This document shows positions 1,275 through 60,943 of a DNA stretch of 64,000 nt, in pieces. The notes beneath the pieces are model-generated. The model saw only the letters and a program-made list of their open reading frames with translations, had not been told where the DNA came from and searched no databases. The stretch comes from Dysidea avara (taxonomy: Eukaryota; Porifera; Demospongiae; Dictyoceratida; Dysideidae). How positions within the stretch are numbered: the first letter of the stretch is position 1; the number at the start of each line of letters is the position of its first letter. The DNA is taken from assembly GCF_963678975.1 (NCBI RefSeq), contig NC_089275.1, forward strand, positions 34,544,226-34,608,225. The letters are read 5' to 3'. Position numbers and translations under genes: made by a program.

Positions 1275-1603
1275 CAGGGGCGGATCCAGAGTTTGGAAAG
1301 AGGGGGGGCACCTTTCTGAAAAACAGTTGAAGACCAAAAAAACTTGCTGAAAACCAGTTGAAGACCAAAAAAAAAAAAAAAGGTCACGACAATAATAGCT
1401 AGTTATACTTACCAACTATATCACGTCTGTTATGTAAAATAAAATCCTATTTATAGCTTCATAGGTAAGCTACACTGCCTCATGAACATTGTGACTGCTT
1501 TATTAGAGTGATTGACTGCTCTATTAGAGTATCTCGATCTTGTATGCAATTTCTTGAAGGGGGGGGCATTTGCCCCAAATGCCCCATCCTGGATCCGCCA
1601 CTG
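1275..1603. mobile_element. MITE, CAGGGGCGGATCC-type terminal repeats
   Basis: A 329-bp non-autonomous DNA element. It starts CAGGGGCGGATCCAGA and ends GGATCCGCCACTG, and is flanked on both sides by CTATA, a 5-bp target-site duplication (1270-1274 and 1604-1608). The interior has A-rich tracts, two CTCTATTAGAG-type motifs (1492-1540) and a G-run near the right end. A second copy in the opposite orientation lies at 20554-20859, also with a 5-bp duplication. The ends resemble hAT-type termini; assignment to the hAT lineage with 5-bp duplications is inference. Confidence 0.85.
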
Positions 1604-1893
1604 CTATACCACAAAACTGTTACAGTAACTCACTATAAACTTACCTTCATGCAACTAATGTGTGTAATAGCGGATTTAAATGATGGAGCTGCCGGTAAAA
1701 TAGTGATTTTACGTTAATAACCAGTGCTAGCACAATATCTACTTTGTACTTGCACAACCAGCTATAGAAAGTTGTGAAGCATTCTTTAATACTGTAGCAT
1801 TCAGTTAGCCTTCAACTAAGACACAAAAAGAATCAAGAATGTAACTAAAATTGTTTACCACTGTTATGGTAGCTACGCTACCAGTGCTGCAAA

Positions 1894-1921
1894 AGATCGA
1901 GATACTCTAATAGAACAGTCA
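1894..1921 (-). repeat. Solitary CTCTATTAGAG motif
   Basis: One full copy of the dispersed motif (reads GACTGTTCTATTAGAG then TATCTCGATCT on the minus strand), outside any element I can delimit. Confidence 0.7.
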
Positions 1922-2356
1922 TGCATGTAAAATGATTTTCATTCGGTGTAAGTCATCTGAAAATATTTTTGCACCACATTTTTATCATGAACTTTTGCAC
2001 AAAAAAGTTAATCAAATTATAGTAGAACTTGCAAGGACAGGAGCACATTTACTCGTAGTATCCTGTAGCGTGTTTTACAAAACAGTTAGTAGTAAATCAG
2101 ACCTTCAGTGCTGGTCACTGTAAAGTGCTAATAAAAATAATAATAAAACCATACGGTGTGGGGATGTGGCTATCTCATAGTTACATTGTGTTATATTTCT
2201 CAGTTGTGTGGCAGGTTCATCACCTAAACTGCCAGGTTTCAAGTACACAGCTCCGGGTCTGCTTCAGAGAATACTGATAATTGTGACTCCAATGTTGACA
2301 CGTTGTATTTTTTCTGTTGTAGCAGTACAAGTAGGCAATAGGTAATGTGGTAATAA

Positions 2357-2817
2357 TAGAGGTGCACCAATATGGGATTTTATCAACTGATAACCGATTA
2401 TAATGAAAATTACCAATTCAAATACTGATATTTTTTAGTGTTTGGTTTCATCTGAACACAAAAGTTTTTTTCAGTATGGACACTACAATAAATGTTGAAA
2501 CATTACTGTATGACCAATAGTTAAAATAGTGGTTGCCTTAAAGTGTGCTTTTGTAAAGAAAAAAAAACAAGACTTGTGAAAAGTGTGTGATGAAAGGTCT
2601 GAGCAAAGAAAAATAACTTAACTTGGGAATTGAACCTTTGGCCACTATAAAGAACTTTAGCTTTATGCCCACAGTGCTATATGAGATCAAACATAGAAGA
2701 AGTTGAGCAATAATAGTACTTTATTACAATATCTGCTTGAAAATTAAGTAAGCTTTTTATGAATACCGCAATATCAGTACCGATACCACTACCAATATTT
2801 GCATCGGTGCACTTCTA
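2357..2817. mobile_element. hAT-like MITE with TAGAGGTGCACC ends
   Basis: A 461-bp element with inverted ends TAGAGGTGCACCAATAT and ATCGGTGCACTTCTA. The same ends bound the element at 54917-55351, which has a perfect 8-bp duplication; here no clean 8-bp duplication remains. The interior carries CCGATA/TACCGATA subterminal repeats typical of this family. It has no coding capacity. Confidence 0.75.
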
Positions 2818-3203: not shown

Positions 3204-3640
3204 TTGTTTTAGTAAGGACGTTTAGTTTTAGTTATAGTCATAGTCAGTTTCATCAATGATTTTAGTTTTAGTTATAGTAATTTTTCTTAATTCCTTTTAG
3301 TTATTGATTTAGTTATGGTTATATCTCTGTGTTATTTTAGTTTTAGTTATAGTTAAAAATGTGAAAATCTTTTAGTTATAGTTATAGTTTTAGTAACATT
3401 TCTAAAAACGTTTTAGTTTTAGAGTTGTACATACAAAAATCTTTTAGTTTTAGTTATAGTTTTAGTAATCTTTTCTTAGTTTTAGATTTAGTTTTAGTAC
3501 ATTATTCAGTTATAGATTTAGTTTTAGTTATAACACGGATTTGCTTTTAGTAATAGTTTTAGTTAACTAATACATACAGTATTTGTCTTACTAAAAGTAC
3601 TTTTAGTTTTAGTTATAGTTAACTAAACCACCATCAGGTC
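3204..3640. repeat. TTTTAG/TTATAG hexamer-rich block, copy A
   Basis: Degenerate tandem hexamers (TTTTAGTTATAG and variants) over about 430 bp. It begins near GTTGTTTTAGTAAGGA and ends TTTAGTTAACTAAACCACC. The whole block is repeated at 3759-4125 with the same internal order, so it is a duplicated unit rather than simple slippage. Confidence 0.75.
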
Positions 3641-3758
3641 ACAAACTATAGTATACATTGATGTTTGGATGCTACATATAGCGGTAAAGTTTCATTCTGT
3701 GCTTTGTTCTACCTGTAGAACATAAGTGAACTTGTACATGCAGTGGTCTGAGCAACAT

Positions 3759-4125
3759 GGTGTTGTTTTAGCAAAGAGTTTTAGTTATAGTTATAGTCAT
3801 ACGTAGCTAGTTTCTTGAATAATTTTAGTTTTAGTTATAGTAATCTTTCTTAATTCATTTTAGTTATAGATTTAGTTATCACATTGTCTTTGTTATTTTA
3901 GTTTTAGTTAAAAACATGAAAGCCTTTTAGTTTTAGTTTTAGTTATCTTTCTTAATTCATTTTAGTTTTAGATTTAGTAAATTATTCTGCTATTTATTAG
4001 TTTTAGATTTAGTTTTAGTTATAATATGGATTTGCTTTCAGTTATAGTTATAGTTTTAGTTAACTAATACATAGCTATTTGTCTTACTAAAAGTACTTTT
4101 AGTTTTAGTTATAGTTAACTAAAAC
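3759..4125. repeat. TTTTAG/TTATAG hexamer-rich block, copy B
   Basis: Second copy of the hexamer block, with start GTTGTTTTAGCAAAGAG and end AGTTAACTAAAACAGC. The ends are loosely inverted (GTGTTGTTTTAG against AGTGCTGTTTTAG read from the right), so it could be a small inverted-repeat element whose interior is a hexamer array. Confidence 0.7.
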
Positions 4126-5130: not shown

Positions 5131-8100
5131 CTACCAGTTTGAAAATTTTAATTTATTATCTTCAGCTCTTTGCCTGTTAATCTTTTCTACTTCCCGATCA
5201 ATTTCCATTCTTATTCTTTCATTACTTATTTGTGGTACCCAAATATTTCTCAAGTTTGATTTGCTACACAGAATTTTGAACACAAATTGTTTTATGACTT
5301 GGTCACTGACGGGATTATCGTGTAACAATAATTCACTAAGAGCTGAATTGTTTGCAAATGAAATGGATAACTGTTCTACCGCATAATCATCAAAATTATT
5401 TCGACTAACATTGAGAACTTTCAAAGTTGTATTTTCTTTTAGAGCACCAAATATTTTATATGCACCCATATTGTGCAGCTTGGTGGATCCCAGGTCTAAC
5501 ACTTCAAGCGATGAGTTTTCATTTATAACTTGGCAAATTTTATTGACAGCTTTCTGATTCACAGTACCACTCTGTCTCAATGTCAGCTCCTTTAACAGTT
5601 TTGTGGATTTCAAGGATGCAATAATCGTTGCTAAACTACCTTCAAATTCATTCCATGACACATTCACTACCTCCAGTTTCTGTTTATCTTGTAAAGTGTG
5701 TGCTATTTCATTAGCTGCTGTGGATTTGACACCATTACTGCTAATATTAAAAACTTTTAGGTTAGGGTGCTGCTTTTGTAGAGCTTTGCACAGTTTAATA
5801 CATCCTAAGCTTTCTAATTTGTTTAGTGAAACATTTAGAACCTCCAGCGAGGTATTGCTTTTGATAACTTCAGCAATATCGCTTGATGCTTTTGACTCAA
5901 TCTTGTTGGAGCTCACATTCAATAGCTTCAAAGCGCTATTTTTTTGTAGTGCACTTGCAATTATAATCATACCTTCAGTCCCAAGACAATTCTGTGAAAG
6001 ATTTAATTCTAATAGATTGGTTTTGGTAGCAAGCATACAGGACAATTCTTGTGCTGCATCTAACTCAATACCATTGTTCTGGAAGTCAAGTACTTGAAGT
6101 GTTTTGTTCTCCTGAAGGGATTTGGAAATTGCAATAACTCCTGCTGATAAAATTTTATTTCCACATAGATTAAGTACTTCCAAACCAATTTTGTTCTCTA
6201 TGCTATCAGCTAAAGCGATTGCAGCAACATCATTAATGTCATTACTTCTCATGATTAATGATTTTAGTCTTGGCATATTCTTGATTGCTCCAGCAATTTT
6301 TTGGACTCCAATAGGTCCCAATTTGTTTTGTGAGACGTCAACTTCTTGCATTAATGGTGCTGTTCCTATGGCAGTTACAAGACTGTCCACAAATTTCTCT
6401 TCTTTTGGTAAACAGTTCGGAATTTCCAAAGCCATTAATGATGGATGTAATTCTACAAATTTTGTGATCTCCCAGTATGTAGAATGTCTAGCACAAATCT
6501 TGATATCTGAAATAGTTACTACTTTAGCAGAGCTAGTCACAGGTACAGTGTCGATTAGATCGTCTGCTGCAATGTGAAACAGCCCAGGTTCTACAATTGA
6601 CAAATTTGATAAACATCTTAATGAAGACCATTTGGTATCAAACAATTTAACCATTGATCCAGTCAAGCCAATGTGGGATAAGTGCAAAGTGTGGAGTTTT
6701 GCATTCTCAACTAATAGGTTTAAAATTGCTTCCAGATGCTTGGCATCAACTGGGCAACTACATATGCTAAATTTGTTTAAGGCAGTGTAACATCTCAACA
6801 CTTCAGCAATGTGATCTCCTGGCTCATTTCTTACATATAGTTGGTACGATGTGATGCCAACAATGTGCAAAGAAGTAGTAGCAGTGATTCGTTGTTCAAT
6901 TTCTTCTGCTACATCAGCTGAAATGTTATTACCATTCATCAGTAGCAGTTTTAAGTTGGTGTCACTAGATAAATGAGAGGTAAATGCTTTGGCTCCTTCA
7001 TCACCCAATAGATTGTCAGAAAGGTAAAGCTCTTCTGTTTCACATGACTGCACTAAGTTTGCTAAGGCATGTGCAGACATCTCGGAAAGTTTATTTCCAG
7101 AGAAATTCATGACTTTGATATGAACTTTGGATTGTGTGGAAGAAGCTAATTCCTTCCACAGAATACCACAACCAACATCTTGCATATTACAACAAGACAG
7201 ATCTAATTTCTCCCACTCTAGTGAATATGATTGAGTTAAAAAGAAACCAAGGGTGACAACATGGTTTGGCAGCAGTGTTTCTCCACTAAGGTCAACTTGC
7301 TTGTTCTGCATTGACTCTCCTATGATGTTACACATGGTTTCATCTTTTGCTTCCTTAAAACATTGAAAGAGGCGAAGACGATTTATTTTAACTTGTAATA
7401 TTTTTTGTGCAATGTGGAACTCTTTAAAAAGTTTACTGGTAAAGGAAAACTGGTTACCAGACAGGAAATGTTTAAATGCAAAAGATCTACCTTGAGTAAG
7501 GCCCACATATATGATCCATGTGTTGAGGTACCTTTCATCCCAGAATGTATCTCTGAGGAGATCTAACTGTCTGTCATCAGGTAAGGATTGTATGTAATAT
7601 GCTGCGAGGTATTCTTGAACTGATGAATGAGCAAAGTTGAAAGATAAGGGCTTCCCATTTGTAGTGAAATGTTCTGCTGTAACTTGTAGCAAGCCAAACC
7701 CATGAATGGTTCTCCCAGAGTTTTGCATAATTTCTGGACATGCACTTCTAACCTCTTCATAATTGAAAACAACAACATCCTTCCTCAATGCATCATATGA
7801 AAACCGTGCCAGTTTCTGCTTGATAGATCCCTTGAAAGAATCCAATCTTTGTAACTCTTTGTACATTTTTTCATCTTTTTCAATGTGATATGTAATGGTC
7901 GAGTCGACAAAATTTTCGTACAACTCGGTACGAGATTGAGGAAGAATGGAGTCATTTCTTATAAACAACTGGAGCAAAATGGTCAGGTTCAGTGGAATAT
8001 AGCACAGGCTGTCAACAGTAGGATGACTGTCCAAGTATTTTGTTAGTGTTGCAATGTCATCTGGATTCTTCTCCAATGCTTTCTGGATATAGTCCTGCCT

Positions 8101-8906
8101 GTCATTACTGGTAAAGCCTAGTATTTCCATTCGACGATCAGCCTGTCCACACAAAGATCCACAGGCAAAAGAGTGAGATGTAATAACCACACCACATTTA
8201 GGCAAAATCTCACACCTGATTATGCGGGAAAGCAAATGCTCACTTTGCAGCCCCCCATAAAATTCATCATACCCATCCAATACAATTGTAAGAATTTCTC
8301 CTTGTGTTTCTTTTATGTGCCCATAAATCGAATCAATCGTCTCTTCGTTCTCCAACTCAAAGAAGAGTGCAACCAAATCTTTTACATGTTTCAATGACTG
8401 AAGTCTTGGATCATGAGCATGAAGAAGAAAAAGAAATCTTTTGTGAGTAAGAATCTGTCCTTGGGACCACTGGTAAGCAATTTCTTTGCACAAGTATGTC
8501 TTACCAATTCCTGGAGCTCCATCAATTAATATGACTCGTGGTGAAGGTGAATCGTCAGCAGGTCTAAATATATTTGCAATGTTTTTATTGATAGTGTTGT
8601 CTGCTAAGTATTCTGCGGTTAAGTCTGCTGAATGGCATCTAGATCTTATATTTTGTCTCAGAGATACTAGACGTGATCTATGAGGTGTTTTTGGAATGGT
8701 GTTGATGTCTCCTTTGTTCCTGGATCTGGCCATAGCACTAACTTCCTTTTTGGACTTTCCCTTGTTTTTGTGATGGACTAATGCAATACTAGTGAACAGT
8801 TTAGGCTTATCTGGCCATATTGGCCATATTTCCTCATCTGGTCCAGTAAATTGTGTATTTTGATAATGTTCTTTTAGACGTATTTCAGTATTGGCAAGAT
8901 CCATGC
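5131..8906 (-). CDS. NLR1 NACHT-LRR exon (Death-NACHT-LRR receptor)
   Basis: Large last exon of an NLR-type intracellular sensor, encoding 1257 residues from the first in-exon Met (8904). After a roughly 100-residue linker, the NACHT ATPase shows Walker A GAPGIGKT (residues 129-136), Walker B LTIVLDGYDEF (about 205-215) and a sensor-1-like GVVITSHS (about 238-245). The winged-helix signature FNFAHSSVQEYLAAYY is at about 422-437. Ribonuclease-inhibitor-type leucine-rich repeats of about 28 residues run from about 566 to near the end. The exon is entered at a clear acceptor (TTTTCTACAG before GCATGG), so the in-exon Met is probably internal. The phase-1 junction continues in frame from the Death-domain exon at 9664-9906. 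By family knowledge NACHT binds nucleotide and oligomerises and the LRRs sense ligand or autoinhibit; the ligand is unknown. Key ATPase residues are intact and no internal stop occurs. Confidence 0.93.
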
Positions 8907-9663
8907 CTGTAGAAAATACATCTATACTTAACCATCACCAAATTAATGAACCATACTAAAGATATTGAACTATGGTACTCAACGTGACACCCAATGTTTA
9001 TGGTATCACTACAATAATGTCAGCGTATGATTGCATGTCGATTTAGCTATTTGTTAGCAACAAAGTTCTGAAACTTCAAAATCCTAAAGTTGTGAAGATG
9101 ATTGTTTTTCTACTTCAATATTGATACACTTTTTGCATCTGTTTGCACAGTCTACAAGTAATTTTGAGGCTTTTTTTTTACCTGCTTGATTTCTTACTTA
9201 TAGGCTTGACAGAGTTAGCATTTTTAATTCATTATTAGCTAAGGATTCTTAGAATTGACTATTCTATTAGAGTATTGTGAACGCACATAAATGAATGCTG
9301 TTAATCTTGAAACAGTCTTAAAAGCCAATAGTTGACTAATGAATATTTCGCATGCAGAGTATCCACAAGGTATAACTACTGTATGTAGGATTGAATTAAT
9401 ACAACAGTGGCCTTGTCATGCACAGTATTGTTTCAGTGCTTGCATGCTTTCCATTTCCTTGTGCCTTGGTAACTTCTTGCAGCAAAGACAGCATGTAGCA
9501 GTACCTAAGTGTGTTGCTGCAACTGCCCGGTGTCTCATGTTTCACACATACATTTGTTCACAAGAAAAGCCCACTATATGGTATAATACAAGGTCATAAT
9601 TATTTTGTATAGCTATATATATATAATATAGTCAGTGGGAAATATATTCTTAAATTCTCTTAC
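8907..9663 (-). other. NLR1 intron between Death and NACHT exons
   Basis: A 757-bp phase-1 intron, donor GTAAGAG and acceptor TTTTCTACAG on the minus strand. It contains one decayed CTCTATTAGAG motif at 9256-9276. Short open frames on the plus strand (9339-9599) have no recognisable features. Confidence 0.8.
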
Positions 9664-12445: not shown

Positions 12446-12448
12446 GTA

Positions 12449-17649: not shown

Positions 17650-19149
17650 CAGGGACAGTGTACTGCAGTTAGCCTCACCAACAAGTGGTGTGTCAGCTGC
17701 CTCACGTACTGCTAAGTGGGGGTTGGGTGGGCAGGTGATGCATCATGGGATTAAAACTGAATATCTTACTGATCTACATACTCTATTTTATGGTTAAGCA
17801 ATGAGCATCTAATTGTAGCTAATTGATTGAGACTTACCAGCAGTAGCACACCCCTGAAACTATGTGAATATACACTGTGTAGACTGTGACAAAAAATGCA
17901 CTGTACTTTGTAAACAGTGTAGGCAGCCCCTTCACTTATTTTAGAGTAGACTTATTCCTTAAGATTGAGATACTCTAATAGAGCAGTCAGCTGCTGTACT
18001 ACAGCAGTCACGTGCTCAAGTAAAACATTCAGATGCATTATTGGATAAAACCTGGTAAAATTAAATATGTTGCCAATGTCAATTTCAGAAGGCTAACATT
18101 TCCAAAAAAATCCTGTGTATACCCCTAGAAAGAGCACGTTGACTGTGATTCACTCACGGTACAAATTGCATCACCATGCTTCGTAACCCCTTTACTTAAC
18201 ACCCCTGGTAAACAGCATTTTTCCAACAGTTGCTGATAGTAGAGAGCAGTCATTGCTGATAGAAGGTGATGAACTGATACTAATGAAGCTAATGTTGTCA
18301 TTGTTTGACTCAGTAATTTAAGAGTAAATCAGAATGGAGCAGAGAATCATGGTTGTTCAGCATTGAGAAGTTAAATATGATGATAGTTTGCTACAATAGT
18401 TCGTTAGTTATGACATGCTTAGTGCTTTAAATATAGCTAGTAGTAGGGCAGCTTAATGGCAAAATTTGTGGACATTAATATTCCAGACAAAAGCACCAAA
18501 CTTTCTCCAAATGTTGTCTACCCTATCACCTTTCAATTTTTGATAGGAACCGCACCACACATTTATGGCTTCCCAATTATTTGTGCATTCAACGTACTTG
18601 ATGTAATGAAACCAAGTGAACATGAAGTCATAGTGTGTTCTCATCATCGATATTATAATAACATAATGGCAAAAATCAGTTGTAGTAAAGCAGCCGCACA
18701 TATGGTTGTCATTGACAACACATATGGTTGTCATTGACAGCTACTTTTTACTTGTGGGATTGAGATCTTGAATACTTTCTAAGGTAAATAGCCTATCTCC
18801 ATGTTCAGTGTTGTTAAATACACATAGTTAGGTTGCTTAAAGCCAAATTTAAAACTAATGTGGACACAAGTGGCAAAAGCACCAAACTTTCTCCACATAT
18901 GTGGTACAACCTTAACTTTATAGGATCCATCTTATTCTAAAAAGGGCCTTTCCATATAATAGCATTTATAGTTATGTAAGTAAAGAATTTTCAAAATCGG
19001 CAAGCCACATAAGTGCTAGTTTTGCTCTATTTCATGTAAGAGAACATTATGCAGGGTTGAACATTAAACCACGACCTGATAAACAATAATATTACTCTCA
19101 CAAGTTTTATTCAATGCTGACAAGTAATTTTTTCATTCATACTGACTAT
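17650..19149. other. Intergenic with dispersed repeat fragments
   Basis: A solitary CTCTATTAGAG motif lies at 17962-17989 (minus orientation). Around 18430-18560 and 18830-18930 there are two related fragments with GTGGACA and CAAAAGCACCAAACTTTCTCC, which also recur inverted at 26930-27010 and 36150-36250, so they belong to a dispersed family. Overlapping 93-codon frames on both strands at 18453-18737 fall in this repeat and are not considered genes. Confidence 0.5.
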
Positions 19150-20553: not shown

Positions 20554-20859
20554 CAATGGCGGATCCAGGATTGGGCATTTGGGGAAAATGCCCCCCCCCC
20601 TCCCCCTTCAAGAAATTGCTCGAGATACTCTAATAGAGCAGTCAATTACTCTAATAAAGCAATCACAATGTTCATGAGGCAGTGCAGCTTACTTATGAAG
20701 CTATAAATAGGATTTTATTTTACATAACATACGTGATATAATATATTTGGTGGATAACTAGCTATTATTGTTGTTGTGACCTTTTTTTTTTTTTGCTCTT
20801 CAACTTTTTTCAGCAAGGTGCCCCCCCCCCCCTCTTTCCAGACTCTGGATCCGCCCCTG
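20554..20859. mobile_element. MITE, GGCGGATCC family, second copy
   Basis: A 306-bp inverted copy of the 1275-1603 family: starts CAATGGCGGATCCAGGAT, ends GGATCCGCCCCTG, flanked by GACAG (20549-20553 and 20860-20864). It carries two CTCTATTAGAG motifs (20628-20665) and a poly-T block. A separate 5-bp duplication at each copy shows they moved independently. Confidence 0.85.
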
Positions 20860-25400: not shown

Positions 25401-25414
25401 GGAGTAAACTAGCC

Positions 25415-26240
25415 GAATGCTCTATTAGGGTGACTGTTCTATTAGAGTATCTCGATCTCGCATTTGCTACACGGAGTTGGCTTTCGAATCATAACTCAGT
25501 GGTTTGTAATCCGATTCTTCTGTACTACTGCAAGGACTTTCTATGAAGATTATTCCAGCTATACACCGATTTTCAGCTCATTGCTCTAAGCGGTTTGCCT
25601 AGTAGGCGTGAAAACTAATACTTTTTTATTCATAAAAATCGATCGCGTAATTGTGACACAGGTTGGGTTTTGTGTCATATCTCCGTGGTCTTTATCTCGA
25701 TTCCTTTCAAACCACCAAAAGGCACTCCTACGATGGTTACTCCATCTACATAGCAATTTTCAACTCATTCCATGAAGCGGTTTACCCTGTAGGCGTGACA
25801 ACAAATCGATCTTGTTTTACGCGAATAATCGGTCATAACTCCTGAACCATTCATCGGATTTGTACCAAATTTGATGCTAGGATTCGCCTTTGGACTCCCT
25901 TTCTGTGTGCCAAATTTCAAGGCGATCGGAGTACGCGTTTGCTTGTTATAGCAATTTTTGCAAGTGTGCGAAAAGACGAAGAAGAAGAAAAAAAACGAAG
26001 AAAAAAAACGAAACGTTGGCAGCTCGTATCTCGGCAATGGCTGGAGCGATTTCCTTCAAATTTGGAATGTAGACTCCCTTGGCTGGCGGGCAACTGTGTA
26101 GCAAATTTGGTTCCAATCAGATAAGTGATCACCGAGATACAAAGGTGTGAAAATGACGGTTTCGTTCTTCCTGTCAATATACTCACGGCGTGGCGCGCCG
26201 GCTTCTTGGGCCGCACGACACACTATCGTGTGTCTTGATT
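25415..26240. mobile_element. Tail module of the satellite-bearing element
   Basis: Follows the satellite. It opens with two CTCTATTAGAG motifs (25415-25458), then a module shared with 42600-43145 (ACCAAATTT, TTATAGCAATTTTTGCAA, TTCTTCCTGTCAATATA in the same order). It ends GGGCCGCACGACACACTATC and a 7-bp stem hairpin GACACAC-TATC-GTGTGTC near 26216-26233. GGGCCGCAC mirrors GTGCGGCCC in the fold-back head. Several 60-108 codon frames overlap here and are not convincing genes. Confidence 0.65.
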
Positions 26241-27525
26241 TTGACCATGCAGCACTGATTAGTTTTCAGAAGAGCTTAGTTCTTTCCCTTGATATTTTTA
26301 TCTTTCTGTTATAATACGATTGTTGTATCATAAGCAAACAATTGATGAAATGTACTCTACTAGCTTTTCCTATAAGCAAGTACACGGTTAAATTTCTGAT
26401 AAACACTCCTAGATCTGGTCCCCTAGGCTGGAAATTATACACTTCAGAGCAAACTAATCTAAAGATTCCATCTGTCAAAATACGTACATGCTTGAGGCGA
26501 GTGCATATACACTGCACAACACAACATAGCCTAGGGATACTTGTGGTGGTGGTCTGGTGGATTATTGCATGCTTTAAGTGATTGTGGTACAAGTGAATGT
26601 AAAATGCAGAGTGGAGATGTGCTTATCTTTGTGTTACAGGACTGCCCAATCTGCTCTAGTAGCCCGACTGCTCTAATAGAGTAATTGTAAATAAAACACA
26701 TAAACATAGACATGTGTTGATAAATATTTAAATTTTAATGACATAAATTAAATTTTAATGACATAATTTATAATTTAATGACATACTTTATAATTTAATG
26801 TCACTTAAAATACTCTAGGTTATTCTAAGGTTTCAAATTACTATTTAAAATACCAAAATTACAAAAAGGCTTATTTCCGAGCCTTGGATGGCTTCCCAAC
26901 ATGCATGCCTGAGGTGGATCCTATCAAAATTTTAATCTAATGAGGTAAGGAACTCACAGAAAAAAATTGGTGCTTTTGTCAGTTGTGTCCACATTTTTTT
27001 GCTAAGCCACCTAACTAACAGATGTAGTAGAACTAAAATTTTAAATATGGATTAAAGTATGTGTTTGATCCGTCAGCCAAAAGACAAAGGAACCACTGAA
27101 ATGCCAACTCAGTGCAAAAGGAGACAGGGACCTGTCAGTAGCATACAACTCATTTCTCACTAATGTTAGTGCTTGGAACATTGCTAGCTGTCCTAAAGTT
27201 CAGCAATGATATTACAACTGAAGAACTAGTAAACCAGGCAGCATGGCATAAGTCTTGTTATGTAAAATTAGCAATGAGAAATACAGAGAGCATCCCAAAT
27301 TCAAGCTAAGGAAGGTACTGTAGGAAGCAGTATTTCAGGTGTGATTTCCCATTGACGTCAGTCAACAGATAAGATGGCTTGTCCTGTCTTGTCTTACCAA
27401 TTGTATGGAAGGAGATTGTATAGCCTAGATGTTTAGAAGGAGATTAACAGAGTTTCATTTAGGGAGTATATTTTCTACAAGTACAAGAACAAAACGATGG
27501 CAATAATAAACTTATGGTTTTTAGC
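26241..27525. other. Intergenic, no gene seen
   Basis: A solitary motif CTCTAATAGAG lies at 26665-26685, and short AATTTTAATGACATAA direct repeats at about 26730-26800. A fragment of the GTGGACAC/CAAAAGCACCAA dispersed family lies at 26930-27010. I find no supported coding exon. Confidence 0.45.
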
Positions 27526-27948: not shown

Positions 27949-28339
27949 CAAGGCCATCCAGAGAAATTAAGGGGCCCAGGGCAAAGAGTTAAAGTGGGGC
28001 CCCTGCATGGGGCAAGGAGGTTTCCATTCTGAATCACAACTTCACCCAAGCTGTAAGTTGAAGACCAAAAAAAAAAAAAGAGGTCAGTACATGCTTACAA
28101 TGACAATAGCTACCCATCACCAACCATATCTTCTTATTTATAAGCTTGCCACACTGCTCCTCTGAAGAATACTGTGACTGCTCTATTAGAGTATTTAGAT
28201 CTGACTGCTCTATTAGAGTATATCGATCTTTTAAACAGGTATTCAAGGGGCCCTTCGTGGGGCCTCCTGGGGCCTCTTTCAGGCTGGGCCCCGGGGGAAA
28301 ACGTCCCAGTTGCCCCCCCCCTCCCCGTGGACGGCCCTG
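27949..28339. mobile_element. hAT-like MITE (GGGCAGCCCTG family), copy 1
   Basis: A 391-bp element, start CAAGGCCATCCAGAG, end GGACGGCCCTG. Flanks are AGTAAACC and AATAAACC, an 8-bp duplication with one mismatch, as expected for hAT. The interior carries two CTCTATTAGAG motifs (28174-28230) and a mirrored GGGGCCC-rich pair near each end. A sister copy is at 34829-35206. Confidence 0.85.
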
Positions 28340-30887: not shown

Positions 30888-31691
30888 CAGGGGCGTAGCC
30901 AGGATTTTTTGAAGGGGGGTTCCAGACCAGCATTGAGTTACCAGAAGCAGGGGTCTGGGGGCACAGCCCCCAGCCGCTGAGAGACTTTCAATATTTTAAT
31001 GAATCAAAACTCAGCAAATTGCTATATTTTATGCAAAAGTACATTAATTGTGATGCATATAAGTGCCCCACGATGAAGGTAGTACTAGATAAAGCCACCT
31101 AGTGGAAACAGACAGCATAACACATAGAGACACATACTAGTAATCTGTAAGTGATAGTTATCTCACTGTGGTATAAGAGCCATGAATCCACTGATACAAA
31201 TGGAATGACTTACAATCAAAACAATATAACTATACAAATATGCATAGCATGAATTCATTTTGCATAACACTGCACACCAAAGCTATAGCAGTATAAGGTC
31301 ATGCTAAGTTTTGCATTTAATGTTAGAATGTCTGAAAAACTTCATATGGACATGGATATATTTACATGCATGTTCTATTAGAGTATACCTGACTGCTCTA
31401 TTAGAATATAAACCTGACTGCTCTATTAGAGTATATATCTGACTGCTCTATTAAAGTATATCGATCTTTTTAACAAGTTTTGAAGAAGCCTAAGGCTCAT
31501 GTTACCTCTGTAAATCCTTCCTTGAGAGATGAATGCAAGCTTTATCAATTGTTGTGCTGTGCCATTACACTATATTACTCACTCATTTTGTCCTGCCACA
31601 CTAAATGGTGTATTAGGATCCTGCTTGCAGAAGTCAAAATTTTACAGGGGGGTTCCTGAACCCCCCGGAACCCCCCCTCCCTACGCCCCTG
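30888..31691. mobile_element. Non-autonomous element, CAGGGGCGTAGCC ends
   Basis: An 804-bp element, start CAGGGGCGTAGCCAGGA, end CCTACGCCCCTG, flanked by AATAT on both sides (30883-30887, 31692-31696). The ends and the 5-bp duplication parallel the GGCGGATCC family. It contains four tandem CTCTATTAGAG units (31371-31468) and a GGGGGTTCCTGAACCCCCC palindrome near the right end. No transposase remains. Confidence 0.85.
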
Positions 31692-33351: not shown

Positions 33352-33380
33352 TGACTGCTCTATTAGAGTATCTCGATCTT
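33352..33380 (+). repeat. Solitary CTCTATTAGAG motif
   Basis: A complete, consensus-like copy directly after the right tandem duplicate and outside any recognised transposon ends. Confidence 0.75.
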
Positions 33381-34567: not shown

Positions 34568-35499
34568 TATAGTTTCACAGGTTGTGACACTACATCTTCA
34601 TTAAATTTTTACGATAAGGGTAAGAGATCAGAATGGGAGGCATGGAATTGTTTCAATAATGTAACACAAACATTTCAACTACATGACACTCCACCTTTAA
34701 ATATAGATATTGATTCTCTGCATTTCAAGTTGCTAGAACATTTTACAGTAGTAATGTCTGACAAAACAAGTGAGCTACAATGTGTGAGATTTACTTTGCC
34801 ACAAGGGTAGGATAGTGGAGAAGCTTCCCAGGGCTGCCCAGAGAAATTAAGTGGCCCAGGACAAAGAGTTAAAGTGGGGCCCCGGGGGCAAGGAGGGTTC
34901 TATTCTGAATCACAACTTCAGCCTAGCTGCATATGTAAGTCGAAGACCAAGAAAGAAAAGGTCATTACGTGCTGACAATGACAATAGCTGCCCCTCACCA
35001 ACTATACCTCCTTATTTCTAAGCTTGCTACACTGCTCCTCTGAAACTGTTACTGCTCTATTAGAGTATCTAGATCTTGACTGCTCTATTAGAGTATATCG
35101 ATCTTTTAAACAGTTATTCAAGGGGCCCTTGATGGGGGCCCCTGGAGCCCCTTCAGGATGGGGCCTGGGGCAAAATTCCCCAGTTGCCCTGCTATGGGCA
35201 GCCCTGAAGCTACCCCCCCAAGACAAGATGCACTGTTGCAGCATACCAAATGAGTGGCATACCAAGCTACATATACCCTGTAGTGCAGCAGTGAGCAACA
35301 GATTCCACCTCCAGAAGGCTGGGGACGGATACTTGATGAGTGCAATGTCTGGGTTCCAGTGTGGAGCACATTACCTATAGCTGCTAAAGCTTGTAGTGAA
35401 CTAGTCAAGTGTAAATATAAGAGCTGTGGTGGCAGATGTTCATGCAGAAAAGCTGGTTGGAAGTGCACAGAGTTCTGTAACTGTCACTGTGTAGATTGA
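34568..35499 (+). pseudogene. Cysteine-rich multicopy-family gene fragment, broken
   Basis: Two homologous-looking coding stretches are separated by a transposon. Left: a frame with SFTGCDTTSSLNFYDKGKR, EWEAWNCFNN and FKLLEHFTVVMSDKTSEL (about 34568-34815). Right: DALLQHTK, a stop, VAYQATYTL, a stop, then PPPEGWGRILDE, WVPVWSTLPIAAKACSEL and the Cys-rich CKYKSCGGRCSCRKAGWKC plus TEFCNCHC before a TGA at 35497-35499. The order GCDTTS, LLEHFTVVMSDKTS, W-x-P-V-W and CXC-like cysteines matches an uncharacterised multicopy protein family that I recall from cnidarian and other invertebrate genomes. A mobile origin is inference. In-frame stops and the 378-bp MITE at 34829-35206 make it non-functional. 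Confidence 0.65.
34829..35206. mobile_element. hAT-like MITE (GGGCAGCCCTG family), copy 2
   Basis: A 378-bp sister of 27949-28339: start CAGGGCTGCCCAGAG, end GGGCAGCCCTG, flanked by AAGCTTCC and AAGCTACC (8 bp, one mismatch). Two CTCTATTAGAG motifs lie at 35050-35104. It is inserted in the broken gene fragment described above. Confidence 0.85.
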
Positions 35500-41646: not shown

Positions 41647-42055
41647 CTGTAGAAAATATATGTATGTACGTAACCATTACCAAAGAAAGTATGATACCCA
41701 ATAACAGTCAGATCCAGGAGTAGATTTCAGGTAGGAAACGTCACCAGACTCTAAGTGGGGGAAGAGCTATAGTGACATTTTCCTGATTTATTATAGCAAC
41801 TCTAAGCTGGCATTATATAGGCTACTTTCAGTCAATAAATTAAGCTGCATTAAAATATGTGAAAATAGTGACAGAGCATATAAGCATAAGAGACCAAAAT
41901 TTTGATTCAATTTAGCCCTAGTGATGTGTTGCAGTTTGTAAAATTTGGCAAAGCATAGCTAGGTGGAAAATATTTAATTTGATGATGATATTAAAATGGT
42001 GCAACCAACAGTGAACTAACTATACTATCAATATTTATCCACACATAAACAGCCA

Positions 42056-43145
42056 AGCTGTGATAAAATGGTGCGGCCTTCAAAACCCTGGATGAAAGTG
42101 TGCATTATCAACATCTATTAGCATTGACATCATTGCAGCCATTTCTTAGCTGCCACCTTTGATTTCACAGCTTTTCACCGAGGCTTTTTACAATGATGAT
42201 TATTGAAGACAGAGTATTGTATCGCATGTTTTATTTCAATATTAATATTTTTTTAATACAGTATTATTGTAATGTTTTAATAGAGTGCACATTTTTGAGG
42301 ACTTCTAATAGAACACACATAGAATGTTCTAGAACAATCTAGAGTTTCCATTGGTAGATCTATAAAATTATTAACTTTTACATATTTACAAAGTAGAAAG
42401 TGAGGTGAACAAGCGTGATAGTGGTGGTTCAGTGGTTAAGCATTGAGTGTTTAGTATGGAAGTCTCTGGGTTCAAACTCTGGTAAGATTTTTTTGACATT
42501 TTTTCATGTCCTTTTTACCTTGTAGTGACTGTTCTATTAGAGTATCTTAACCTCTTGATTTACCAGTTTTTTTGTTTTTGCTCTGTAACGCTGTAGCTGT
42601 TACTCTTTTATTTTTCAAGCTATTAAAAGGCACTGCTATGATGGTTAACCTATTTAAATGCTAAATTTGAAGTAATTCCCTTAAGCTGCCCTGTAGTCAT
42701 GGCAAAAGTTTGATCTTATTTTAAGCAAATAAACAATCCTAGCACCATAGATATGTATGTCAGATTCATTGCAAACTTAGTACATGAATTCACCTTTATA
42801 CACCCTTTATCTGTACCAAATTTCAAATGCGCGCTTGCATTTTATAGCAATTTTTGCAAAGTGGGTTAAAAGAATAATTTAGGCCCCTGTAGACCAAGAA
42901 AGAAAAAGAAAGGAATAAAACTATGTAGAAAATTTTGAAACTTTGGCTACCCATATCTTCTCACAAATGGCTTTAGTGAATTTATTCAAACTTGCTGTGT
43001 GATCTAGCCTACCTGGAGAATAGCTTAAATGCAAAAATGGTGTGCTTTGGAGAAGGGGAAATATATATGTAGGTGTTAAAATTGTGTTTTCTTTCTTCCT
43101 GTCAATATATATACATGATGTGATGCACCAGCTTTCGTAGCCGTA
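42056..43145. mobile_element. Diverged satellite-free relative of the 21-26 kb element
   Basis: The head ACAGCCAAGCTGT and GGTGCGGCC, then TTTCTTAGCTGCCACC, corresponds to the fold-back head at 21110. A CTCTATTAGAG motif lies at 42525-42550, and the tail (CCAAATTTCAAATGCGCG, TATAGCAATTTTTGCAAA, CTTCCTGTCAATATATA) corresponds to 25600-26200. Order and orientation are the same, but the 31-bp array is absent. It lies in the long NLR2 intron. Confidence 0.65.
42415..42490 (+). mobile_element. tRNA-like SINE head
   Basis: Box A-like GGTTCAGTGGTTAAGC and box B GGTTCAAACTC spaced as in tRNA genes, followed by a T-rich run. The remaining arms do not pair as a tRNA. It sits within the element at 42056-43145. 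Confidence 0.55.
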
Positions 43146-43700
43146 CACATTTCATGATACACATGTATATCTGATAGTTCACTGACGTAAGTGTATACCA
43201 TAATAAAATTGCACATATGTATATTTTATGTGCTCATGTTTCAATATGTTATTTAATGGTGTTATTATGGGCCTGAAAGTTACTCAACGATGTATATAAA
43301 AATTCAGTGTTACTGTCTAGTTTTCATAGACCAATTTCAACCCATTAATTGTGCTTTGGCAACTCCTTGTTGTGAAGAAAACATGTGGCAGTACCTAAGT
43401 GTGGTGCTTCACTACTCATAAACATTGCTAAGGACATAATGTCATGATCAACTAATGTGGTGAACATTATATGTTTTGTATTGTCTATGAGGAAGTTTGT
43501 TCTTTATGGTCAAAGTTCCATGGAATGTATTGGTTTAAAGCATTAATATTGCGCATAAATACTTAGCTGCTACAGTGCAACTTCTCTTATCCAGGCAGTC
43601 TAATACATCATGACCACCGTCCATATCTCAGAAATGTTTTAAACTAAGAATTGCATGCTATTATGCTAAAGTGATTACAGGTAATATTGTTATTGCTATC

Positions 43701-45110: not shown

Positions 45111-46783
45111 CTACATAATACCATTATTACACCTTCTGTAATGGGCAAATTTGCATGAATTAGCCACATTAGACTGTATGCAGTACATTATGTCTGTCTC
45201 CTCCATTAAAGTACATAATAATAATGTAAAGATAATATTTTTAGTAATGAGCTGGCTGTGGACAGGATATACCATATTAGTCCACTAAATGATATGTCTA
45301 CATATTTAGATTGGAGTGTGTGGGTAGAGGCAGAGAAACTCTATGGTCTCCTAATGTGAAAGGAAATATCTTTTGTCTGGTAAGACCTTATTTTAGGTAC
45401 ATGCCATACAACTACACACATCACCACGTTACACTTTGGTCAACAGGGCAAGATAAAGATTGTCTCACATACATAGACATGGCTAATTATTTGACATCCC
45501 AACATCCACAAATTTTAAATTACAAAAATCTGCATTAACTTCCTAATACAGTAGAACCAGACACGAGAGTGTAAATAACATGTAATTTAACTGGTGGTCG
45601 ATCACTACTGCATTATCATGAAGATGAAAACTTGGTATAGGGTTTGTCAATATCAGTGGAAGCGCTAAATGTCACAATGGTGATATTGTTTTAGCATGTG
45701 TGTAACGTTTTACATAATATGTTTCAAAGATGATGTAAAGCAGTGGTTGGATATAGCATATAAAGACACAACATGTATGACTGTTCCAGAAAAGATTCTA
45801 GAAAAGACATAGCTAAAATCTTTGTTGATTATTCCAAAGACATGCAGTGTAGCTAGCTATAAATATGCTGTTAGAAGGTAGGTAGGTATTTACACTATAG
45901 TTTTAACTGCTGCAGGTAGTTACTTTGCATGCTTTCTTGGGTTCAGTGATTTTCTGATGCCAAGTTGAATGACTTATAGAGAGTTGATGCCTCAAATGTG
46001 CTTTGGGCATTATTATGGTATGTACTCCCTCTTCATGCGTTTATACATAAATGTTACTATAGCAACATAACAGTATAGTAACTACCTTTGTTTATCACAA
46101 AAGTATAAAAAGTTCACTGAGATCAAACAAATCTCAAACAAATCTTAAGTGTAAGCAGTGACTTTCAAGCAGTGCATACTAGCGGCTACATAGATGTAAC
46201 CATGCACACATTACTAGGTGGTTAAGGCTATTAAACTTCTGTGGCTATAGGCTAGCCAGGGAATATTCTGGCCATTTGATTATAACACTAGCTAAACACT
46301 TCACTCATGCCAAAGTATACAGAGTATATAAGCAGTTAGCTAAGCTGTATGTATATTTCTGAGACAACATTTTATAGTCATACTGCATGAATTCTCTATC
46401 TTGATGTTATGCGGTTAGCTAGTCGGTAGGGGGTACTACTGAGAGCGCGGAACACATAGACGCATAGAAAGCCAATAATAATGTATGCCATGTGACTAGT
46501 TATACTATGGCCTTCGTTAAAACCCGGAACGGACCGGACCGGACCGGAACTGAATTTTATTGTTGAGGAGCGCGTATCCAACTAAAATAAATTTCGTTGC
46601 GCTTGCAAGGGATACAGGACGTGGACTCTGTTCTTCATTTGCACTCAGGGCACGATTGTCTACTGATATCCAGAGTGGCTGATGGCGATTTCGAAGCAAA
46701 TATAGTCGTATACTGGTATTTATACAAGTTTGCGAAGCGGAAACGTAGCGTATTACAAGGACTGGATACTCTCACCGCAGCTA

Positions 46784-47025
46784 ACAATGGTGGCGAGATA
46801 CAAGCTAGCTACTGTAAGACTGATCACAAATAATATACCTGGACTGATCTACATACCGTACGCAAGGAAATTTATACGCGAGAGAATCTGACGAATCGGG
46901 TTTGATTAGTCAAAATTTTCTTAAGTCTAAATTTCCTTGCGTAGCTACGGTATGTATACAGATCAGTCCAGTTAGCTATATTATCTATGACCAGTCTTGG
47001 CTAGCTTGTATGTCGCCGCCATTGT
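46784..47025. mobile_element. Nested fold-back MITE in the Mutator-like arm
   Basis: ACAATGGTGGCG and mirrored CGCCGCCATTGT at the ends, with longer inner pairing (GGACTGATCTACATACCGTA against TACGGTATGTATACAGATC). TA flanks both sides. The uninterrupted right arm of the host element shows the empty site (AGCTAAGGCC). Confidence 0.8.
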
Positions 47026-47682
47026 TAGGCCACTCCCAATTGGTAATTATGTTTCTGGTCAACCGCCCGCATCCTTTTTTGGAGAATGTTAAATTTCAGA
47101 AATACACGAGATACATGGGTAAAATGCCCGAATCAGCTTTTTGAAAAACCTGGATTTCAGAAACAAATATTGGGCTGCAACAAGTATGCTAAATCTAACC
47201 ATAATTTGTATTTTATCAGTGAAAACCTGCAAGAAATGGACAATTCATAGGCGGCGGAAAGGGGGGGGGGGGGCTAAAGCCCCCCCTCAGAATGATATCA
47301 CACCGAAATTATCTTTCTTGGAGTGGGGCTGAAAACCGTGATAAAGATCGAGATACTCTAATAGAGCAGTCACTCTAATAAAGTAGTCAGTGTGTAGCGA
47401 GCTATGTAAGGATTTTTATGTAGTTTATCAGCTAGAAATGGTAGCTGGTAGGTGGAAAACTCTTGTCAGTTGGTTGTGACTTTTTTTTTTGGTCTCACCT
47501 TACCAAACTATAGAAATAAGTCTGGGTCAGCCCAGCCCCCCTCATATCAACTACTTCCTCCGCCGCTGATGGACATAGTGCATAGTACAGTTCGATATAC
47601 TCTAATAGAACAGTCAGTAAATCACAAAAGTACTCTAATTGAGCAGTCACTTCATTGTTGCTGAATTCCGCCCGCCCGCACC

Positions 47683-47934
47683 TACACTGTTAAAAATAAA
47701 GAGTAACCACCACTCTGAGAGTTCCCAGTGTAGGGAGGATTTAACACCTCATGGAGAGTAACCAACCCTCTGAAGAGAATAACCATTACTCTGAAGAGTA
47801 AGCGACACCACCTTCAGAGCATGTGTTACTCCCCAGTTACTCCTTTAGAGTAATGGTTACTCTCCAGGGGTGTTAATCCTCCCTACACTGGGAACTCCTT
47901 GAGAGTTGTGGTTACTCTTCATTTTAACAGTGTA
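47683..47934. mobile_element. CACTGTTAAAA-ended MITE
   Basis: Starts TACACTGTTAAAAATAAAGA and ends mirrored TTTTAACAGTGTA; almost the entire 250 bp folds on itself (AGAGTAACCAC, TCCCAGTGTAGGGAGGATT mirrored). A TA duplication is likely. Confidence 0.8.
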
Positions 47935-48429
47935 GGACTCATTTTCAAAGGACCAGAAACATAATTACCAATTGGAGTGGCCTTAGCTACGGTGAGAGTA
48001 TCCAGTCCTTGTAATACGCTACGTTTCCGCTTCGCAAACTTGTGTATATACCAGTATACGACTATATTTGCTTCGAAATCACCATCAGCCACTCTGGATA
48101 TCAGTAGACAATCGTGCCCTGAGTGCAAATGAAGAACAGAGTCCACGTCCTGTATCCCTTGCAAGCGCACCGAAATTATTTTAGTTGGATACGCGCTCCT
48201 CAACAATAAAATTCAGTTCCGGTCGGGTCCGGTCCGTTCCGGGTTTTAACGAAGGCCGTTATACTATATAGATTGACATGCAGCAGAAGAAGTTAATCAG
48301 TAAAGTTATCTACTGACTTGCTTGTCTTCTTACCTGTAGCTAGCTAACTTACTCCCAACTGAAATTATGATAGTATAGACTAGCTACTACAGTACTAGCT
48401 ACAACATGTTACATGAATATTTCGCTTAC

Positions 48430-55548: not shown

Positions 55549-57592
<2,044 letters not shown>

Positions 57593-59372
57593 GATGAGTG
57601 CTTGCTTGCTTGCTTCTTCTTCATACTATTGTTTGTACGTGTGACCAGTGCCTGCATTCATGCATTCATCTGTTATTAATGTCTGCCATAAAATAATGTA
57701 ATTTATTCCCCAATAGGTTCCTGAAGGCTACTGATTTGCAGCTAAACTGACAGCCATTAGATTGATTATAACTAATTATTTATTAATTTTAATTATATGT
57801 GATCACGTCATCCCAATATAATAATAATGTATGTATAGTCCTGTCTAAATGGGTTTGCTGCAAAGGAGAGACGCTAAACTACTGGAATCAAGTTTTCTGT
57901 ATTGGGCGGCCAGGACCGAGTGCCGCCAGAAATATTAAAAGCTAGACGGTGTGGAGAAAGTAATAACTGAAAACCAGGATCTATCCTTTGTTAACAGAGA
58001 CGAGATTATGTGCAAACGAAGATGATAAGGAGCTAAGTCTCTTGGATACAGACCCATGTAAGTTCGTGTTGTACGTAGTGTATTGTGTTTAAAACCTATG
58101 CATTTCCTAAAGAGTTTTAAAATTTAGTTTCCAGCCTTAGACCACCTTCAATCCGACCATTTAAGGTACTGCATGTGATTTTATGGTGCAGGTATTACTT
58201 TCAATGCAGAGCCAAGTTAATGTTTAACCTGTAGCTGTAGAATCCCATTCAGCACTGTATATTGTTTTCGCTTCTCAAATATCAGGCCTACAACCCCTGA
58301 TTTCTTACAATGTATGGCAGATGGAAAGCCTTTTTGAAAAAAAAAATGCTATTATTTGGCCTATGCTTTGCCACAGGTCTGTTCAATAATGCAGTTATGA
58401 TATAGGGATAACTGATGAGGTCAATCAGAGCCTTGCTCATTACTTGTATGGGTGCAGTCAGTGGCAATGATTTGTAGCATGATAATAATAAACACTCCTT
58501 TATCACCCTGATAAAGTGATCTGAGACATTGAAAATACTGTTTTACATCAGTAAGGGAAACCATTGAACACATAACAGCAGTGTAGTCATAATGCTTGCT
58601 GCACTGTGATCATTTTGATTTGAGTACTTGTAGTTCATCTTACACTATGACTTTTGATAAAATTCAACCTTTATTCCTACTGACACTCACATTAGCATTG
58701 CCACAGACCACACAGGATAGCAGTTTAAGCCAAAATCAATGGAGTGCATATTTTCTAAACCACACATTGGTTTCCATACAAATTTGTATGTTGTTCAAAG
58801 TGTCTCACAGACGTACAGTTCCTTGGATTGAAATGAAACTTGGACACAAGGTTCACCACTTATAGTGCTACCGATTGGCACAGACAGAGCATGTCCATAG
58901 GTGAAGATATGGCTTCAAGAATGTAGTACATGTTGTGGTGAAGAATAAGCCTGTTAGTCACAGAACCACTTGCTGAAAAGATCCTAATTTATTAGTATCC
59001 AGCCCTACAAGCCATAATCAATCCTTAATGACAGTGCAGTAAAGATCAAAATTAATAATGCTATACTCCCATTCTGTTACTAGATATGTTACTATATACT
59101 TTGCCGGGGCCTGTAACTTTCTGTTGTAAGACATTGCCAGTCCTTAATTAAATTCCTTATGCCTTTAAATAAAGTAGTCTATTGGCTATCACATTTAGGG
59201 AAAATATATTTTTTACTATGTGGTAGTTATGTTTATTTTTTTGAATGCATAATTTTGTATTAGTATGCAGATGTACATACATATTTTACTGTAGGTGATA
59301 GTAGGCCAGTATAAGCATACTACAATAATTTTAGTCTTTGCTTGTACATAAATGCATTGTACATAGCTCCTT
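57593..59372. other. Intergenic, no gene seen
   Basis: A donor-like ACCCATGTAAGTTCG occurs near 58050, after a short GC-richer stretch (57900-58050), but no frame supports an exon. The remainder shows no repeat ends I can delimit. Confidence 0.35.
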
Positions 59373-59432
59373 AGATCAATACTCTCTAATAGAACAGTCA
59401 CTTTATAGTGAAATACTCTAATAGAGCATTCA
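59373..59432 (-). repeat. Paired CTCTATTAGAG motifs
   Basis: Two units on the minus strand separated by about 16 bp; the second has an extra AG in the core. No transposon ends recognised around them. Confidence 0.7.
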
Positions 59433-59586
59433 CAGATTAAAATTTTCCAAGATAATTGTACGAAATGTTGCTAACCTAGGAGTATAATGCAAGCATAATG
59501 GGAGCACTGAAGAGCACAAAAGGTGGGAATTTTGGGAGTTTCATTTCGGGCAAAATTTAGAGCATATTGACTCGCCTAACTATAGA

Positions 59587-60943
59587 TTTAGGATCTTTTA
59601 GGCCACGTTATATTGCTTGTACAATATCTTTGTTTTCCTCAAGTATACCACAACAACAACATAATAATAATATAGACGTAGCCATGTGGTTATGATATCA
59701 TAGTTACATGGTATCTGAATATTTATTATTTACTATTCATTATGCTATTATGTATGATAATAATAATAATTATGTATGTTAATATGCATGCGGACAGTAT
59801 TTCTACATTCATAAGCCTTTTTGCATCAATAAAGTAGTAGTACATTACTATCTAAGAAATGGGTCACACATGCATGATCATGATATTGCAAATCTGTAGC
59901 TAATTACTTGGATGTGTGTGTGCTCACGCATGTGTGTGTTATGGGCAACTAATCAGTTGCCCCATCAGTGCTGCTGATAATTAATCTGTGTACAGTTACG
60001 ACTATCTAAACTGCACGTGTATATACTGTGCAAAATGTTTGAGATTGCTCAATAGAAACACAAGGTTGCTCTTACACCTTTAAGATTACAAATAGTGTGA
60101 TCACCAGTATTCCATGGAGGTACTAACTCTTGAATCCTACCCATGGCTCTGAAAATCTGATTACACATTGGTTAACTACTAGGCTACTAGGTGAAGGCAT
60201 AGCATTAGGGACAATCTTACTTTATGATACCTATGACTCAAGTTGATCTTCCTAGCAACCTGTGTTCTTATAATCATACACAGGCCAGTGAGGCCACTGT
60301 TAGGGACCAGTCTATTTTGCTTTTTTTCCCACCTATTTTTCTTTCCAGCAACTCTTTTATTTTTCACCTATTATGCTCCATATTTTGCTCAAGAATTATA
60401 AATTTTGCTCGGCACTGATCTTTGTTAATTGAATATTTCCAAGTGCAAAGCTACCGTTTTGCTTTAAAGTGACTGTTCTATTAGAGTATGTCGATCAGCA
60501 CTTACTTCTAACATGTAAAGCAAGAAGATAGCTAATATTGCTTAACATGTGTGACTGTTTTATTAGGGTATCTCGATTGTCACTTGCTGTTCCTGTAACA
60601 AGTAGCTATGCATTGTCGATATTTTAGCGCGTCTGACTGTTCTATTAGAGTATCTCGATCTGTAGTGAAGTTTTTATGTCCACTTCACAAAAATTGCACC
60701 TATTATGCCAGCATTTTGCTCATTGTTTTTACCCACCCATTATGCTTAAAATTTTGCCGGCAAAATCAACGGGTCCCTAGCCACTGTGTACAGTATAATT
60801 ATCGTTGTCTACAATTTGCAATTTTTGATTTTAAAAAGTTTTACTACTATTATTGTGATTAAATGCAATGCAATGAAATGAAAGGGAAGTCAATGCGTGA
60901 ACATGGACACAAATACATATTATATAACATGTACAGCATATTG
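59587..60943. repeat. NLR3 3' flank shared with NLR2
   Basis: Same order of blocks as 36661-37632, interrupted by the 479-bp element at 60301-60779. Supports duplication of gene plus flank. Confidence 0.8.
60301..60779. mobile_element. hAT-like element with three CTCTATTAGAG motifs
   Basis: Starts TAGGGACCAGTCTATTTTGC and ends mirrored CAAAATCAACGGGTCCCTA. Perfect 8-bp duplication GCCACTGT (60293-60300, 60780-60787); the NLR2 flank has a single GCCACTGT at 37478-37485. Motif copies lie at 60470-60497, 60552-60578 and 60632-60661, separated by about 55 bp. Confidence 0.9.

Follow-up and report, generated by a model that had tools for sequence, protein, structure and literature searches.

The 64-kb stretch of Dysidea avara DNA analysed here, called the window below and the basis of all counts and comparisons, carries a short motif dispersed through small transposable elements and intergenic DNA beside NLR genes. 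The consensus of this motif, TGACTGYTCTATTAGAGTATCTCGATCT, is 28 bp long and has a near-palindromic core, TCTATTAGA, a head, TGACTG, and a tail, TCGATC. The original prediction had placed it at 18 loci in 29 units and in both orientations, and all 18 coordinates, the 29 units and the occurrence in both orientations were confirmed. With a match defined as at most four mismatches to the 19-bp core TGACTGCTCTATTAGAGTA, 33 matches were found in the window versus 4 in total across ten order-2 Markov shuffles (0.4 per window); 29 of the 33 belong to the listed loci and the others lie at 151, 17992, 45195 and 56211, the one at 151 being backed by flank homology. A 28-bp weight matrix, which was built from 14 of these same copies, gave 24 matches of at least 12 bits versus none in 15 shuffles. 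When the 18 terminal units were aligned on the core, the conserved block ended within a few bases on each side, and no common consensus was seen past the motif edges, only scattered columns at 60-70% agreement. Perfect 28-bp copies recur at distant positions: those at 1513, 33352 and 47345 are identical to one another, as are, separately, those at 1894, 25431 and 60634.

Unit-to-unit spacings are 17, 21, 23, 25, 27, 28, 32, 33 and 82 bp, the last four exceeding the 17-27 bp that had been predicted as the length of inner units. The prediction that the last unit of an array keeps its tail held: over nine tail positions, 30 of 171 cells deviate from the consensus in the 19 terminal or single units versus 60 of 99 in the 11 inner units. 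The elements and arrays in which the motif is embedded are the following; MITE denotes a miniature inverted-repeat transposable element.

1275..1603, plus strand: hAT-like MITE A1, ends CAGGGGCGGATCCAG, 5-bp duplication CTATA, array of two units at 1492-1540
20554..20859, minus strand: second copy of A1, duplication GACAG (by eye), array of two units at 20617-20665
27949..28339, plus strand: hAT-like MITE A2, duplication AGTAAACC/AATAAACC (by eye), array of two units at 28175-28229
34829..35206, plus strand: second copy of A2, ends CAGGGCTGCCC, duplication AAGCTTCC/AAGCTACC, array of two units at 35049-35104
30888..31691, plus strand: hAT-like element A3, ends CAGGGGCGTAG, 5-bp duplication AATAT, array of four units at 31367-31467
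46508..48258, no strand assigned: Mutator-like element, terminal inverted repeats of 276 bp (97.5% alike), 9-10-bp duplication
47243..47568, minus strand: probable nested hAT-like element inside the Mutator-like element, array of two units at 47345-47389
47589..47649, minus strand: outer array of the Mutator-like element, two units
60301..60779, plus strand: hAT-like MITE C, ends TAGGGACC, duplication GCCACTGT (8/8), units at 60470, 60552 and 60634
42214..43149, plus strand: family B copy, motif at 42526; the limits are those of homology and the ends are unproven
25414..26220, plus strand: family B copy, left homology from 25430, adjoining the motif (one base before the unit)
54..467, minus strand: family B copy, motif at 142-169 (locus 151), partly decayed

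The hosts had been described as having different ends and different target duplications, and this was borne out. Duplications of 5 bp accompany the CAGGGGCGGATCC-type ends of the two A1 copies, those of the second copy being read by eye, and the CAGGGGCGTAGCC ends of the single A3 copy. Duplications of 8 bp accompany the CAGGGCTGCCC ends of A2, where each of the two copies has one mismatch (7/8) and the ends and duplication of the first copy were read by eye, and the TAGGGACC ends of C, where all eight bases agree; the Mutator-like element has 9-10 bp. The A and C hosts have short terminal inverted repeats with CAGGG- or TAGGG-like starts, the left end of the first A2 copy being CAAGG. The 8-bp target duplication of hAT elements is thus present in A2 and C, and A1 and A3, whose 5-bp duplications (CTATA, GACAG and AATAT) are not of this type, are hAT-like by their ends only. 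A hAT subgroup with 5-bp duplications is known.

The ends of the Mutator-like element are uncertain by one base; its long inverted repeats and roughly 9-bp duplication are those by which such elements are recognized. It had been named as a host, which holds for the array at 47589. The array at 47345, by contrast, appears to sit in a hAT-like insertion nested within the Mutator-like element. This nested element is bounded by 7-bp direct repeats ATGGACA (47236-47242 and 47569-47575, by eye), 13 bp beyond the right one of which the outer array starts, and a scripted scan for 8-bp duplications with at most one mismatch yielded none. With the motif unmasked, the nested element matched A1 over its whole length (nhmmer, E 8.8e-11); with the motif masked, nhmmer gave no match between the two.

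Element C supplied the one clean transposition of a host. An empty site for C lies at 37478-37485, in a paralogous NLR flank (37425-37550), and the joined flanks of C align with it through the junction, with one copy of GCCACTGT. Since this empty site is exact, the three units of C, which follow each other at an exact 82-bp spacing (60470-60661), most simply arrived inside the transposed element. The units are alike at 23, 24 and 26 of 28 positions in pairwise comparison, and the DNA between them at 23/54, 25/53 and 24/53, which is the range of random 54-mers (mean 49%, 95th percentile 63%). BLAST within C paired two overlapping 115-bp stretches, 71% alike, each of which holds two units.

Copies of family B that are only 61-66% alike have the motif at one homologous position, and it is therefore old in this family. 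The copy at 25414 starts 45 bp from the end of satellite homology (25369); its motif had been placed in a satellite composite, and the copy turned out to belong to the same family as 42526. It contains a 187-bp tandem repeat, the second repeat of which holds a decayed unit near 25618. Letters resembling an A and a B box precede the motif at 42526 (by eye), and neither ARAGORN nor Rfam found a tRNA at the head of the family.

The kinship of the hosts was assessed by nhmmer after masking of the motif units, the satellite and the NLR stretches, with the reversed window as a control. These searches joined 1492 with 20617, 28175 with 35049, 1492 with 28175 (E 4.7e-6), and 42526 with both 151 and 25414, and the reversed window gave no match at E 0.05. 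Six listed loci and the unlisted locus 151 thereby fall into three families, namely A1 (1492, 20617), A2 (28175, 35049) and B (42526, 25414, 151). When homopolymers were masked too, the link between A1 and A2 fell to E 0.007 in one direction and 0.78 in the other, the best reversed matches being 3.5 and 9.6 for the A1 and A2 queries and the lowest of ten queries 0.43. Extension of the flanks (306 tests, 1500 random pairs) linked 1492 and 20617 with 35049 on the left and 31367 with 28175 and 35049 on the right, each at P ~0.001. We conclude that A1, A2 and A3 are probably, though not firmly, related. Neither of the two masked searches connected C with A or B, and the first of them made no such connection for the 47589 locus. 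Thus, among four host groups (A1, A2, A3 and the nested element, generously grouped; B; C; and the outer Mutator-like element) and the six loci without an assigned host, only the motif is detectably common. Homology endpoints appeared to cluster close to the motif, at 9 of 17 loci (P 0.0005), but this result was dropped, as masking the motif itself makes such endpoints.

Common descent of the hosts had been judged unable to explain the distribution; this is consequently true between these groups and false within them (1492/20617; 28175/35049; 42526/25414/151). The copies were not found to be remnants of one transposon family with similarity extending well beyond the motif; the independent hosts are fewer than the list of loci implies. 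A difference within the motif follows the host groups: position 7 is C in 6/6 terminal units of the A1, A2, A3 and nested hosts and T in 7/7 terminal units of the B, C and outer Mutator-like hosts (P 0.0006, with related copies counted separately). This difference holds even between arrays about 200 bp apart. The rule applies to terminal units and is broken by 3 of 10 inner units in assigned hosts (at 25414, 31367 and 47631).

Retention of the motif was compared with that of the remaining host sequence in pairs of related copies. In the A1 pair, 47/49 motif positions versus 205/244 of the rest agree (P 0.010); in the A2 pair, 53/55 versus 263/314 (P 0.004); between B42526 and B151, 19/22 versus 246/373 (P 0.03); and between B25414 and B42526, in a direct alignment, 25/28 versus 109/180 (P 0.0009). 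Motif identity in these four comparisons is thus 86-96%, versus 61-84% for the rest of the hosts, with a combined P of 1.8e-6, or 9.5e-6 when the decayed unit of the 187-bp repeat is included. Three of them come from an initial nine, of which five contrasts among A1, A2 and the nested element were left out for uncertain background homology (for example, motif 45/49 versus rest 137/252) and one was misaligned. In that last alignment, of B42526 with B25414 (24/44, P 0.81), the aligner had matched 42526 to the second of the two 187-bp repeats, and the result was dropped.

Six of the listed loci lie outside any delimited element, as had been predicted, and a generic search for ends and duplications found no convincing element around 1894, 9256, 17962, 26665, 33352 or 59373. 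The units there are the following.

1894..1921, minus strand: single unit, 28/28 to the consensus, no host assigned
9256..9283, plus strand: unit lacking the tail, no host assigned; the NLR reading frame 5131-8934 is about 320 bp away
17962..17989, minus strand: single unit, no host assigned
26665..26692, plus strand: weak unit without tail, central core base flipped, no host assigned
33352..33379, plus strand: single unit, 28/28 to the consensus, no host assigned; a local repeat stops 17 bp to its left
59373..59432, minus strand: two units, no host assigned

The match at 17992 may be a decayed inner unit 21 bp upstream of the unit at 17962, a spacing also seen in the A1 arrays.

The motif, its edges, most of its hosts, one clean host transposition and an above-background retention in four comparisons are directly supported. 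That the motif is mostly intact where the surrounding element has decayed suggests that something reads it. Our preferred interpretation, which we advance tentatively and at somewhat less than even chances, is that a sequence-specific DNA-binding protein recognizes the motif, which several non-autonomous elements carry. The putative protein would bind the near-palindromic core, probably as a dimer, and touch the TGACTG head and the TCGATC tail on one side. The elements would carry the site internally, singly or in short arrays, and would retain it for a benefit that it brings them: it might, for instance, attract a host factor, or a helper's protein, that makes chromatin accessible or aids transposition. 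The motif would have come into intergenic DNA within these elements and as what is left of them, the six loci without a host being presumed remnants of this kind. Both the binding and its benefit to the elements we infer from the sequence. Among the three explanations that had been offered, the binding site fits best. The variable spacing of the motif, its arrays and its occurrence in both orientations are more easily reconciled with a binding site than with a fixed fold. One shared transposase is unlikely to be the partner, because duplications as different as 5, 8 and 9-10 bp should call for different transposases in the respective hosts; a host factor would be more natural, as would exchange of the site among elements.

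Several points weigh against a recognition site. The range of duplications that makes one shared transposase awkward is itself among them. One of the four homologous family B units is fully decayed (16/28, in the second 187-bp repeat) and another partly, so that retention is not strict. The four retention tests are not independent, B42526 being used twice, and their P values are optimistic; moreover, the hosts were noticed through the core, which makes core conservation partly a selection effect that the masked searches lessen and do not remove. The analysis also covers 64 kb only.

The main rival, to which we give a minority chance of roughly one case in several, is recombination or template switching between elements, with the motif as the short shared homology at which it takes place; internal segments would be swapped between different ends and the motif rewritten by conversion. 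The left homology of the 25414 copy begins one base before the motif unit, with satellite homology ending 45 bp further left, a local repeat stops 17 bp from 33352, A3 and A2 have only the right flank of the array in common, and the internal DNA of A1 and A2 may be shared although their ends differ and their duplications measure 5 versus 8 bp, all of which would fit such shuffling. Junctions linked to palindromes or motifs are also reported for some satellites in excerpts of PMC5139131 and PMC3694981, the former describing no link between palindromes and junctions for two of the satellite groups tested there. However, free conversion should wipe out group differences, yet position 7 of the terminal units is split between the host groups, with which the repeated gene conversion originally suggested fits poorly; the A1-A2 link is, besides, weak. 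Insertion and spread of the 28-bp unit itself, sometimes in tandem, is improbable in our judgement. It would account for the sharp edges, for perfect copies in unrelated contexts, for the small number of half-decayed copies and for the lack of detectable kinship in the DNA between the units of C, as expected from independent insertions. But no consistent duplication flanks the unit in the window (by eye), inner units lack the tail, and the motif is old in family B, holding one homologous place there. Nor did a joined-flank search of the window give a convincing empty and filled pair for the unit alone: besides self matches it gave the B copy at 75-302 (for 42526) and six matches of E 0.02 to 1, and at the 25414 junction two lenient satellite matches (68% and 59%; E 2e-12 and 4e-7) driven by the satellite on the left side. 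A minimal parasitic insertion, as originally suggested, is disfavoured on these grounds.

Plain descent, by which all copies would be remnants of one old transposon lineage with flanks decayed beyond recognition, has a slim chance. In its favour, three families already account for six listed loci and 151, and the hAT-type ends of A1, A2, A3 and the nested element resemble one another. However, decay strong enough to efface the flanks should efface the motif too, which the four retention comparisons contradict, and neither the outer Mutator-like element nor C could be linked to A or B with the motif masked. A function in RNA, in which paired units fold into hairpins that serve as small-RNA precursors or structural signals, seems very improbable. 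Nine stretches were folded. Four with several units each, at 1492, 28174, 31366 and 59368, did so somewhat more favourably than their shuffles (z -1.9, -2.9, -2.9 and -1.65), whereas the 47585 array and four single units showed no such advantage (z -0.7 to +1.7), and such a fold is expected from any palindromic repeat. Stem changes show no clear bias towards pairing, with shared descent counted by eye, and no Rfam family was found at the gathering score.

A broader form of the recognition-site interpretation is that a host DNA-binding protein, possibly a domesticated transposase as CENP-B is, reads one 28-bp site that hAT-like, Mutator-like and other elements have acquired or retained, forming a genome-wide network of sites across superfamilies, here beside NLR immune genes; we regard this as speculative and rather unlikely as a whole. 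The ends usually serve to distinguish families of small transposons, and the interior is assumed to drift freely. An internal word kept across elements with different transposases would, if true, mean a shared partner or an exchange route across superfamilies, and one motif would be a concrete handle for finding that partner.

Known systems offer partial parallels. According to excerpts of PMC2872659, the CMITEs of Acropora corals are small non-autonomous elements with different terminal repeats and an internal region better kept than the ends, as seems to be the case here. They share a 75-bp region and have TTAA duplications, whereas here 28 bp are firmly shared, the duplications are 5, 8 and 9-10 bp, and the motif also occurs outside delimited elements. 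Greater conservation of the inside than of the ends holds here for the 28 bp, the wider A1-A2 homology being weak with homopolymers masked. CENP-B box-like motifs, as described in parts of PMC3694981 and PMC5139131, are short motifs conserved at repeat junctions in satellites otherwise 32-64% alike; the likeness, a short motif kept in divergent repeats, is one of kind, and none of sequence was sought or is claimed, the CENP-B box being a 17-bp satellite motif. The hAT transposases of Ac, Tol2, Tag1 and Herves bind short repeated motifs, several copies of which lie inside the elements (PMC3143072, in part). Those repeats are at or near the ends and specific to the element, whereas in the present hosts the array lies in the interior, centrally or to one side, and one motif is common to hosts whose ends differ. 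hAT MITEs have also been described in Drosophila (PMC3517528). The present motif is set apart from these known kinds by the shortness of the shared word and by its reach across element types.

No relatives of the motif were found among viral contigs or plasmids. In a collection of genome contigs, a 20-mer gave 0 matches and an 18-mer gave 4 versus about 15 expected by chance under uniform composition; these 4, none of which has the tail, were treated as chance. One of the four (L001) lies in the AT-rich end of a bacterial contig and has one unit only, and its next best match to the window has E 0.083. In the literature, the 11-mer CTCTATTAGAG occurs in 6 papers and CTCTAATAGAG in 2, all unrelated by title. 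Among the titles listed for sponge MITEs, or for unrelated elements that share short palindromic motifs, none concerned this motif, and five transposon terms looked for in the paper on the Dysidea NLR genome (PMC12909245) were all absent.

The surrounding window contains three NLR paralogues on the minus strand, at 5131-8934, 37633-41707 and 60780-64000. NACHT and leucine-rich repeat matches were found in the first two frames (two proteins examined); the open sequence of the second is divided over two frames, with a gap at 38796-38969, and the third was recognized by its DNA, which is 92% identical to that of the second as far as the window reaches. As had been predicted, no unit lies inside the NLR reading frames (open reading frames of at least 150 aa) or the third NLR stretch. 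All 14 unsplit open reading frames of at least 150 aa in the window fall within the NLR stretches or a pure GT dinucleotide run of 531 bp (56987-57517, 100% matches). CpG is depleted, with an observed/expected ratio of 0.37. A 31-bp satellite occupies 21630-25369, with 17 and 97 copies in two rows to 25164 and a higher-order period of 247 bp, and its homology extends to 25369, 45 bp before the motif array. A near-perfect palindrome of 324 bp (21109-21432), 94% alike to its own inverse, is a fold-back-type element with similar stretches at 42036-42197, and imperfect TTTTAG-type repeats, telomere-like in look, lie at 3442-4061.

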